From Clostridium sp. Marseille-Q2269 (GTDB lineage Bacteria > Bacillota > Clostridia > Clostridiales > Clostridiaceae), in assembly GCF_943736985.1 (NCBI RefSeq), contig NZ_CALSFS010000001.1, forward strand, positions 62,001-126,000: a DNA stretch of 64,000 nucleotides. The letters are read 5' to 3'. Each line of letters opens with the position of its first letter. Position 1 is the first letter of the stretch. The position numbers and the translations under genes are program-made. The notes under the pieces are model-generated. The model was not told the DNA's origin. It made no database searches and saw only the letters and a program-made list of their open reading frames with translations. Positions 12,865 to 21,517 of the stretch are shown in pieces.

Positions 12865-12918
12865 TAATAATTTAGAAATTATGTAACTATAAATAATAAA
12901 CTAAATTAGGAGGTAAAT

Positions 12919-14034
<1,116 letters not shown>

Positions 14035-14181
14035 TATTAATAAAGCTTTAAATTAATTTAAATAAAAAAATAATTATATGCAATAAATATTTTTCTATGA
14101 TATAATAAAAAATGCTTTATACACAAAATTAATATTTTTAGATTAGAAATGCAATCTTTTATTTTGAAAGTATATATAGAT

Positions 14182-14763
14182 AAAGGTGGTGCAGTATTCT
14201 AGTCAGGTAAGTATATCTTGAAGGCGGGGCTAAAAATCCGCTAAAGGGCACATCGATGAAGCTCTTGGTGCTGGCTTGCGACGCCCAGTTGTGGGCTGGT
14301 GCTGGGAGAAAGAAGGCTGGGGCAACCACAAAGGCATGTGGCAATTGACCCTACCTTCGTGGAGGCCATTGATTGTGGATAGGGAGAGATTCCCTATGTA
14401 CGACAATGGATTAAACCTGCATGTGGCGATGAGTTATGTGCAGTGTAGCCTGCCTTGAGTGGTGGGGGGAGAGGTTAATTTAAATCCAAAGGTTAGGCCA
14501 AACCTTTGGGCTAATAATTGCTGAAACCTCCATTGCAAAAGAGGCTAGAGATATACCCAACTGTTGAGGAAATCTCCTAGACTGTTCTATACGAGGTATA
14601 TTAGGGATTACAGTGCGGACTAAGTGGCAATCCAGTCCTATTTCTGGTGACAGGGTAGGTAGAACATTAAAGGGAAACCGTCAAAATGGCGACATTTTGA
14701 TTGTTTTACGGGAAATCCTACTGGACCTAAGCCGCAAGGTTTACTTAATATACTACCACCTTT
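14182..14763 (+). ncRNA. ole: OLE RNA (ornate large extremophilic RNA)
   Basis: About 580 bases are GC-rich compared with the surroundings, hold no credible gene and have many short self-complementary blocks. The ends pair: AAAGGTGGT (14182-14190) is the exact complement of ACCACCTTT (14755-14763), and AGTAT/ATACT extends the stem beyond a GC bulge. Size, position between ispA and dxs, and the membrane-protein gene directly downstream match OLE RNA, a roughly 600-nt RNA of anaerobic and extremophilic Firmicutes that binds OapA at the membrane. RNase P RNA was considered and rejected. Exact ends are inferred from the closing stem. Confidence 0.85.
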
Positions 14764-14901
14764 AAAAATTACATATTAAAACATACATTAATGGAGAATA
14801 TTTTTAATAATTATGGTTTAGTAACATTTTAGGTTATATAAACATAATTTTAATGATTAGTATAAAATCATTAAATACTTAGTTTTATGGAGGAATTGTA
14901 A

Positions 14902-15459
14902 TTGGGAAATAAAAAAGATAATAAGAAGAGTGACTCCAAGGTCAATGTAAAGTGGATATTAACCATTGTTGCATGGTCTGTTATTTTTTCAGGGAGTATA
15001 TCTCTTATGTCAGATGTGCTACTAGATAAAGTAAACTTATTAGTAGCTTTTATTATATTAATTTTTATTATATTAATTGGTATAATATTTGATATAATAG
15101 GAGTTGCAGTAACTGCAGCCAATGAAACGCCTTTTCATGCAAAAGCCGCCAATAAAGTTCCAGGGGCTAGGTTAGCAGTAATTTTTATTAGAAACGCAGA
15201 AAAGGTATCAAGCTTTTGTAATGATGTTATAGGAGATGTTTGCGGCATTGTAAGTGGATCTATAGGTATAATAATAACAAGCAAAATATTATCTTCAAAT
15301 TCCACTTTAAATTCCACAATGATAACTACAGGAATAGGTGTTACTATAGGAGCTTTAACTATAGGGGGAAAAGCTTTAGGTAAAGGTGTTGCTATAAAAA
15401 ATAGCAATGACATATTAGAGAAAGTTACAAGATTAATATATTTTTTTAAAAGAAGATAA
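14902..15459 (+). CDS. oapA: OLE-associated protein A (OapA) family membrane protein
   Basis: The 185-residue protein has a basic N-terminal tail (NKKDNKKSDSK), four hydrophobic segments (about 17-37, 44-72, 113-130, 137-160), a central loop with PGARLAVIFIRNAEKV, and a D-x3-D motif (DVIGD, 108-112). OapA is the known protein partner of OLE RNA and is encoded right behind it. The complex has been linked to alcohol, cold and magnesium stress in Bacillus halodurans. The start is TTG 14902, 8 bases after GGAGG. Gene order ispA-OLE-oapA-dxs supports the call strongly. No RNA-binding motif can be proven by eye. Confidence 0.85.
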   Translation: MGNKKDNKKSDSKVNVKWILTIVAWSVIFSGSISLMSDVLLDKVNLLVAFIILIFIILIGIIFDIIGVAVTAANETPFHAKAANKVPGARLAVIFIRNAEKVSSFCNDVIGDVCGIVSGSIGIIITSKILSSNSTLNSTMITTGIGVTIGALTIGGKALGKGVAIKNSNDILEKVTRLIYFFKRR

Positions 15460-15504
15460 AAACAGATGAAATTGCAAGGTTAATATATTTTTAAAAGAGG
15501 ATAG

Positions 15505-17376
15505 ATGAAAATGAAAAACATATTAGATGAATATAAAGATTTCAATACTATAAAATCTATGTCTATAAGAGAATTAAATCAATTTTCATATGAAATAAGA
15601 GAATTTTTAATAGATAGTGTATCTAAAACAGGAGGACATTTAGCTTCTAATTTAGGGGTGGTAGAACTTACTTTAAGTATATTTAATGTATTCGATTTAA
15701 ATAGGGATAAAATTATTTGGGATGTAGGACATCAAGCCTATGTATACAAGATATTGACGGGAAGAAAAGATCAGTTCCATACATTAAGACAATATGGTGG
15801 ATTAAGTGGCTTCCCTAAAAGATGCGAGAGCCCTTATGATGTGTTTGAAACAGGACATAGTAGTACTTCTATATCTGCTGCGCTTGGAATAGCAAGAGCT
15901 CGAGATATAAAAGGAGAAGATAATAAGGTTATAGCTGTAATAGGAGATGGAGCATTAACTGGTGGCATGGCCTTTGAAGCATTAAATGATATAGGATTTA
16001 ATAAAACAGATCTTATTATAATCTTAAATGATAACCAAATGTCCATAGCAGAAAACGTAGGTGGAATGTCTAGTTATTTAAGCAAAGTTAGATTAGATCC
16101 CACCTATAATAAATTAAAAAAAGAAGTTAATAATACTTTAAATAAAATACCAAACGTAGGTAAAGGGATGGCTCGCTCATTGGAAAAAATAAAAAATGGT
16201 ATAAAACAAATGATTGTGTCAGGCATGTTTTTTGAAAACTTAGGAATAAAATATTTAGGACCTATAGATGGGCACGATATAAAAGAATTAAGTAAAGTGA
16301 TGAAAATGGCACAAAATATAAAAGGGCCAGTATTAATACATACTATAACAAAAAAAGGAAAAGGGTATGCTTATGCAGAAGAACAGCCAGATAAGTTTCA
16401 TGGTATAGGACCTTTTGATTGTAATAGTGGTAAAGTAAGCTCTAAGGCATGTTTAACTTATTCAGGAGTATTTGGACAAGAATTAACCAATTTAGCTCAA
16501 AAAGATAAAAGAATAGTAGCTATAACTGCTGCTATGAAAGATGGTACTGGTCTTAGAAAATTTGGACAGAAATTCCCAGAAAGATTTTTTGATGTAGGCA
16601 TAGCAGAACAACATGCAGTAACTTTAGCTGCAGGTATAGCAACAGAAGGATTAAAACCGGTTTTTGCTGTTTATTCCACATTTCTTCAAAGGGCTTATGA
16701 TCAATTACTACATGATATATGTATACAAAACTTACCTGTAGTTTTTGCTATAGATAGAGCAGGTATAGTAGGTAGTGATGGAGAAACTCATCAAGGAATT
16801 TTTGATTTATCTTATTTATCATGTCTTCCTAATATGACTATAATGGCACCTAAATGCTTAGAAGAAATGGGAATAATGTTAAAATGGTCATTAAGTCAAG
16901 ATTCTCCTGTAGCTATAAGATATCCTAGAGGGGGAGATGTAAAATCTTTAGAGATGACTCCTATAAAAAATATAGAAAAAGGTAAATGGGAAATAATTTC
17001 TGAAGAAGAAGGAGATATAGTTATAATAGCAACTGGAAAAATGGTTCAGCATGCTATTATAGCAAGAGAAAAATTAAATGAATGTGGTATAAAATCTACG
17101 ATTGTAAATGCTAATTTTATAAAACCTATAGATAAGGAATTAATAAAAAACTTTGTAAAAAAAGGATATAAGATAGTAACTGTAGAAGATAATGTAATAA
17201 AAGGTGGTTTTGGCTCTTTAGTTCTTCAATATGTAAGTGAATTAAAGACTCATAATATTGTTTTAAATTTGGGCTTTAAGGATAAATTTGTGCCTCATGG
17301 CAGCACGGATATATTGTATAAAATGGAACAATTGGATCCAGAAGGTATTGTTAAAAATATAGTAAAGATTGTATAA
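15505..17376 (+). CDS. dxs: 1-deoxy-D-xylulose-5-phosphate synthase
   Basis: This full-length thiamine-diphosphate transketolase-type enzyme (623 residues) makes DXP from pyruvate and glyceraldehyde 3-phosphate, the first step of the MEP pathway. Seen are [32 protein letters not shown], the cofactor motif [15 protein letters not shown], and later [15 protein letters not shown] and RYPRGG. AGAGG (15496-15500) is very close to ATG 15505, and ATG 15511 is an equally good start. It functions with the nearby ispA in isoprenoid supply. Confidence 0.97.
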
Positions 17377-21343: not shown

Positions 21344-21517
21344 CTCTTATCAAGAGTGGCGGAGGGATCAGGCCCTGTGAAGCCCGGCAACAGCTAGTAA
21401 GATCTAGAAATGTGCTAATTCCTGCAGTGAATTCACTGAGAGATGAGGGAGTAAAGTTACCATATTTTAATATTTGTAACTAATAACAAAGTCATTTCTT
21501 AGGAAGTGACTTTTTTT
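21344..21517 (+). promoter_or_regulatory. SAM-I riboswitch (S box) with terminator
   Basis: The aptamer (21344-21449) has P1 CTCTTATC pairing with GATGAGGG, and the core blocks AGAGTGGCGGAGGGA, GGCCCTGTGAAGCCCGGCAAC, and GTGCTAATTCCTGCAG, all typical of SAM-I. The expression platform contains a terminator hairpin AAAGTCATTTCTTAGGAAGTGACTTTTTTT type (21488-21517). With SAM bound the terminator should form and shut off metY-hom-metA. Confidence 0.96.

Follow-up and report, generated by a model that had tools for sequence, protein, structure and literature searches.

A complete and conserved copy of the OLE RNA is encoded at positions 14182–14763 of the window, the 64,000-nucleotide stretch of Clostridium sp. 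Marseille-Q2269 DNA analyzed here, and is followed at 14902–15459 by the gene for OapA, its putative membrane partner; all features described below are on the forward strand. The RNA belongs to the OLE family, its conserved core is intact, its P1 and P3 stems covary, and it is linked to oapA. We consider it likely that the roles published for the OLE RNP apply to this locus. Among the structured bacterial RNAs that have no known biochemical function, OLE is one of the largest, and according to one proposal it is a natural integral membrane RNA (PMC12265935). Partial cryo-EM structures of the OLE RNAs of C. acetobutylicum and C. botulinum have been published (PMC12265935, PMC12286853). Because Clostridium OLE RNAs are already in print, the finding is of a known kind: this is a normal, complete OLE–oapA locus at the usual place of the family, and the window copy extends the set of intact Clostridium-like examples by one.

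Identity, Extent, and Genomic Setting of the OLE RNA

The original prediction had taken this region for the known OLE RNP locus, and a search with the OLE covariance model had been set beforehand as its refutation test. The Rfam model (RF01071) matches positions 14170–14775 with 558.3 bits (E 5.3e-161; cut-off 50), and the match is full-length, covering model positions 1–616 of 616. The noncoding block predicted as GC-rich and about 580 bases long, 14182–14763, measures 582 bases with a GC content of 0.464 vs 0.269 for the window, and no 582-base tile of the window (tiles taken every 20 bases) is richer in GC. The claim that the copy is complete is borne out both by the end-to-end coverage of the model and by the retention of every one of the 157 columns whose conservation reaches 97% or more in an alignment of 75 OLE RNAs that includes the window copy. 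Its P7, P8, and P9 segments are 49, 24, and 64 nt long (medians of the aligned OLE RNAs are 49, 26, and 67), and judged from its sequence the copy is of the full-length type that contains P7, P8, and P9, neither variant 1 nor variant 2. Its score is on par with those of the top two of six relatives scanned by the same model (558.8 and 556.9 bits); three others score 532.5, 505.9, and 403.9 bits, and in the locus of the sixth, L017, the model finds no OLE match.

The gene order around the RNA, SpoIIIAF, SpoIIIAG, SpoIIIAH, Asp23, NusB, XseA, XseB, IspA, OLE, OapA, Dxs, TlyA, NAD kinase, ArgR, and RecN, matches the published one. OLE follows the ispA frames, which end at 14034, and oapA (14902–15459) lies between OLE and dxs (15505–17376), so the coordinates confirm the predicted placement of the RNA between ispA and dxs and directly before oapA, with oapA also preceding dxs. 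Among the ten genomes searched, that of C. acetireducens (L005) has the Dxs protein most like the one in the window, at 70%. Shortly past recN, a SAM riboswitch (RF00162) is present in full length at 21344–21449 with 88 bits. The predicted frameshift in the upstream ispA (13161–14034) was likewise found, as two overlapping frames (13161–13511 and 13465–14034) that match consecutive parts of polyprenyl synthetase. Both a strain mutation and a sequencing error are possible causes of this split.

Relatives of OapA were gathered by their likeness to the window protein, and the set therefore leans to close relatives; at least 242 were found in named genome records, of which the best 80 were kept. 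Of these best 80 of at least 242 loci, 54 have a match to the window dxs no more than 1 kb past the OapA match and 26 have none in the locus; ispA is a single open frame in each of the 53 loci where both of its halves were found, one or both halves being absent from the other 27 of the 80. With the window RNA as query, nhmmer finds OLE in 78 of the best 80 of at least 242 OapA loci, and in 77 of these 78 fewer than 400 bases separate the end of the RNA from the OapA match that follows; the gap between the OLE match and oapA in the window is 126 bases. The 75 aligned OLE RNAs consist of the window copy and those of 74 of the 80 loci, with two loci left out for having no OLE match (L015 and L017) and four for partial nhmmer matches (L007, L060, L072, and L077), of which the L007 OLE is full-length by the Rfam model. 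The L015 locus is cut about 200 bases before its OapA match, and its genome yields no OLE match. The L017 MAG (uncultured Bacilli, Lapin-027 bin63) carries oapA with no OLE in front of it, and its OLE is found on another contig, L082 (411.2 bits, full), with no OapA match within 3.6 kb around it; unlinked genes or a binning error are possible explanations.

Stems, Loops, and Contact Sites of the RNA

The P1 closing stem consists of nine Watson–Crick pairs between 14182–14190 and 14755–14763, as had been predicted, and both sides are changed in seven of the nine pairs among the 75 sequences. Inside it, an unpaired GC (14191–14192) is followed by five more pairs (14193–14197 with 14750–14754); this extension past a GC bulge, also part of the original prediction, is present here but is not general, its pairs being formed in 40 to 73 of the 75 RNAs depending on the pair. 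Strands 14211–14219 and 14548–14556 pair to form P3, and 14204–14206 and 14561–14563 form P3.1, which is taken together with P3 as the published proposed membrane-spanning helix. P1 and P3 are named in the published OLE model (PMC12265935), and our naming follows its text and legends, the names P3 and P3.1 being given to these pairs by their position. The consensus of Rfam RF01071 leaves both P1 and P3 unpaired.

The 21 pairs of P1, P3.1, and P3 were compared in the 75 sequences with 500 shuffles, which related sequences can beat even when no structure is present, and with slid versions, over which the structure is favored by the mere fact that it was laid out from the pairing of the window itself. 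The cells are paired in 85.0% of cases vs 68.6 ± 0.8 in shuffles and 34.9 to 51.8 in slid versions, 362 cells are changed on both sides vs 137 ± 15 and 50 to 140, and the covariation score is 0.560 vs 0.261 ± 0.011 and 0.106 to 0.225. No separation is obtained from the count of pairs that show any both-side change, 18, as 20 of the 500 shuffles reach 18 and one slid version reaches 19. In a cross-pairing control for P1 with 61 of the 75 rows (14 rows having no motif match were left out), the longest run averages 7.8 for the strands of one RNA vs 6.2 for strands of different RNAs. The weak pairs are the two outer ones of P1 (paired in 43 and 56 of 75) and the outermost one of P3 (38 of 75). P1 and P3, left out of the Rfam model, covary strongly.

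In the published model the P3 helix is proposed to cross the membrane with the 3′ domain outside (PMC12265935). Across the 75 OLE RNAs the letters of P3 change freely while its pairing holds, and the stretch from the invariant T14203 to the invariant A14221, which contains the 5′ strand of P3 and P3.1, is 16 or 17 bases long in 73 of them and 15 and 18 bases in the remaining two. At the published 2.5 Å per pair, 16 positions span about 40 Å, close to a bilayer. The near-fixed length of the 5′ strand and its free sequence thus suit the membrane-spanning proposal, and this is a fit and not a proof. The length of P3 was considered as proof of a membrane helix and rejected: the 5′ strand has a length standard deviation of 0.5, while the 3′ strand is looser (23 to 28 bases, standard deviation 1.3), and other stems are equally fixed. 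Because the P4, P5.1, P6, and P14 segments (standard deviation 0.2 to 0.8) are as fixed as P3, fixed length alone is no sign of a membrane helix. P13 comes close with a standard deviation of 1.7, and the segments most variable in length are P7, P8, P9, and P10 (15.5, 7.4, 10.6, and 4.0), the first three differing by tens of bases among the RNAs.

In H. halodurans, the ribosomal protein bS21 is reported to bind P6 of OLE at the hexamer CCUCCU, which copies the tail of 16S rRNA (PMC12054373). The P6 interval of the window copy, 14345–14358, reads UUGACCCUACCUUC, and CCUCCU is found in the matching interval of none of the 75 OLE RNAs, with the H. halodurans hexamer taken from its description; CCUCC occurs in the P6 interval of four RNAs, and CCUCCU anywhere in the RNA in four. 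An anti-Shine–Dalgarno hexamer in P6 does not define the OLE class. The P6 bases G14321, G14322, C14350, and C14351 are identical in all 75 RNAs, and they are probably the pairs whose inversion cost bS21 binding (PMC12054373). The M1–M3 mutants, in which the mimic was changed and the GG/CC pairs were intact, still bound bS21 according to the same source, which fits a role of these invariant pairs. The absence of the hexamer suggests that bS21, where it is bound, reads the invariant GG/CC bases rather than a copy of the 16S tail.

The sites of contact described for other OLE RNAs are also present in the window copy, as placed on the published drawings from their text. These include the P4 hairpin with its A-rich loop (14226–14239), which makes A–A contacts in the published OLE dimer (PMC12286853), and the P9 loop (14494–14501), whose self-complementary GGCC is a published dimer kissing loop (PMC12286853). 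The P5.1 loop region would lie at 14280–14289 and that of P6.1, its kissing-loop partner in the dimer, at 14332–14338 (PMC12265935). Of the two strands of the kink turn, to which OapC is proposed to bind, J4a/5 is placed at 14251–14261 (PMC9723947, PMC12286853), and J6/7, the other side in the C. acetobutylicum cryo-EM model, at 14358–14364 (PMC12286853). Two GGNGAC loops of the 3′ domain, at 14644–14653 and 14686–14695, fall in the region described as P12.2/P13, where the OapB site lies (PMC9723947, PMC12265935), and their assignment to stems is tentative.

OapA, Transcription, and Alternative Explanations

The oapA gene, at 14902–15459, encodes 185 amino acids from a TTG start, which is preceded by GGAGG at 14889–14893. 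Among the matches listed, the best-scoring relative is that of Clostridium rectalis (61% identity), and the first five, all Clostridium, are 58–65% identical; identity ranges from 38 to 65% over the 29 relatives that were aligned out of the 80 kept. All 15 residues that are invariant among the 30 aligned OapA proteins are kept in the window, nine of them within C106 to G119. The downstream gene is thus a member of the OapA family, as its identity of 61% to the best relative and the presence of OLE in 78 of the 80 relatives' loci attest, and the prediction also passes the second refutation test set beforehand, a downstream protein outside this family. It had been predicted as a four-helix OapA-like gene, and of this the OapA likeness holds, while a plain Kyte–Doolittle scan gives three clear hydrophobic regions (about 19–40, 44–62, and 109–131); OapA is stated to have four membrane helices in PMC12265935. 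The protein has a weak match to the CNNM domain (E 8e-4, 19.6 bits), below the Pfam cut-off of 28.4, and no CBS or CorC domain was matched with Pfam. None of the NCBIfam models match up to E 0.001, and a search of solved structures with the profile of the OapA family gives nothing up to E 1. OapA has been linked to MpfA-type Mg2+ transporters (PMC11332333), and the weak CNNM match is in line with this tie.

In H. halodurans, ole is transcribed both as part of a long operon (PMC12265935) and from a promoter of its own (PMC9723947). An extended −10 element, defined as TGn plus TATAAT with at most one mismatch, lies within 45 bases before the P1 anchor in 60 of the 75 OLE genes; the window copy is one of the 15 in which none is found within this distance. 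By best-site count the element occurs in 56 of 75, whereas 200 shuffles give a mean of 3.9 and never more than 10. In 55 of 75 the best site is preceded by a −35-like hexamer with no more than two mismatches, vs a mean of 18.9 and a maximum of 30 in 100 shuffles; both sets of shuffles preserve base content only. In the window, an exact candidate, TGATATAAT, is located at 14098–14106 and ends 76 bases before P1. It is the sole extended −10 in the 160 bases examined before the window OLE (chance about 0.03 there), matches of its type number 14 in the whole window vs 13.95 expected, and taken alone this putative promoter element is weak evidence. A generic promoter scan of 12900–15600 gives 17 matches vs 16.4 in shuffles, which is no excess, and three terminator-like matches vs 0.9, all of them within OLE. 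A longer 5′ leader is possible because the only exact extended −10 before the gene lies further upstream; if the element at 14098–14106 is used, about 70 bases of AT-rich leader would be added to the RNA. The combined reading in which P3 is a sequence-free membrane-spanning ruler and the 5′ leader of the window copy is some 60–70 bases longer than that of most relatives is put forward as speculative and rather doubtful.

That ispA is in two frames here, against one open frame in all 53 loci with both halves, and that the extended −10 near the anchor is absent here and present in 60 of 75 genes, could indicate a decaying OLE copy whose RNA is perhaps no longer made in useful amounts. We judge this improbable, since all 157 of the most conserved OLE columns are kept, the score of 558.3 bits is level with the two highest among the six relatives scanned, and oapA is open and retains all 15 residues that do not vary among the 30 proteins aligned. 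Moreover, the window has a candidate −10 at a greater distance upstream, a nearby one is also missing from 14 of the other 74 OLE genes, transcription of a long operon also covers OLE in H. halodurans (PMC12265935), and the split of ispA may be a sequencing error.

The short distance of OLE to the OapA match, less than 400 bases in 77 of 78 OLE-bearing loci, would also be expected if the RNA were mainly a cis-acting 5′ leader that controls the translation of oapA and not a separate RNP. This is slightly less probable still in view of the trans roles and localization published for H. halodurans (PMC12265935, PMC9723947), the 126 bases between the end of the OLE match and oapA in the window, and the MAG with OLE and oapA on different contigs (L017/L082), though a binning error is possible there. 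The probability that an ordinary GC-rich noncoding stretch or another class of RNA resembles OLE by chance is negligible; the E value of 5.3e-161 with a curated model already refutes it, and 14 control genomes searched for the family in the same way give no match. The preferred reading is a complete OLE RNA acting together with OapA.

Proposed Function and Comparison with Known Systems

The functional steps of this OLE RNP are drawn by analogy from work on H. halodurans and from the Clostridium OLE structures (PMC11332333, PMC12265935, PMC9723947, PMC12286853, PMC12054373, PMC10898510). The RNA would dimerize through the P4, P5.1/P6.1, and P9 loops, and OapA, a putative small relative of CNNM-type Mg2+ transporters, would hold it at the membrane. 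According to a published but unproven proposal, the bilayer may be crossed by the P3 helix, with the 3′ domain outside. The complex would also bind OapB, OapC, and bS21, and may adjust metal-ion handling and aid the cell under cold, alcohol, Mg2+, and carbon-source stress. Three points can be checked in the aligned OLE RNAs: that P1 and P3 are paired, that the 5′ strand of P3 hardly varies in length, and that P6 does not contain the hexamer.

The likeness of OapA to the CNNM/MpfA Mg2+ transporters, a link made in PMC11332333, is a weak one to the CNNM domain in sequence; in contrast to these transporters, OapA has no CBS or CorC match, and its CNNM score is below the Pfam cut-off. Like the window, C. 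rectalis (L001), C. peptidivorans (L002), and C. muellerianum (L003) have OLE with oapA downstream, and the oapA products are 61%, 60%, and 65% identical to that of the window, respectively. The Rfam scores of the OLE RNAs are 556.9 bits in C. rectalis and 558.8 bits in C. peptidivorans, and that of C. muellerianum was found by nhmmer. Unlike the window, all three have one open ispA frame and TATAAT within about 35 bases of the P1 anchor, in C. peptidivorans with no preceding TG.

The OLE RNA of H. halodurans (637 nt) belongs to the same family, and its gene is clustered with oapA (PMC9723947, PMC12054373). As far as these sources describe it, its P6 is reported with CCUCCU, which the window copy, compared by description, does not have, while the invariant GG/CC bases of P6 probably correspond to those of the window. 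The OLE RNA of C. acetobutylicum (577 nt), solved as a dimer by cryo-EM (PMC12286853), is of the same length class as the window copy and, by its description, has in common with it the P4 loop of the A–A contacts, the kink-turn strands, and the self-complementary P9 loop.
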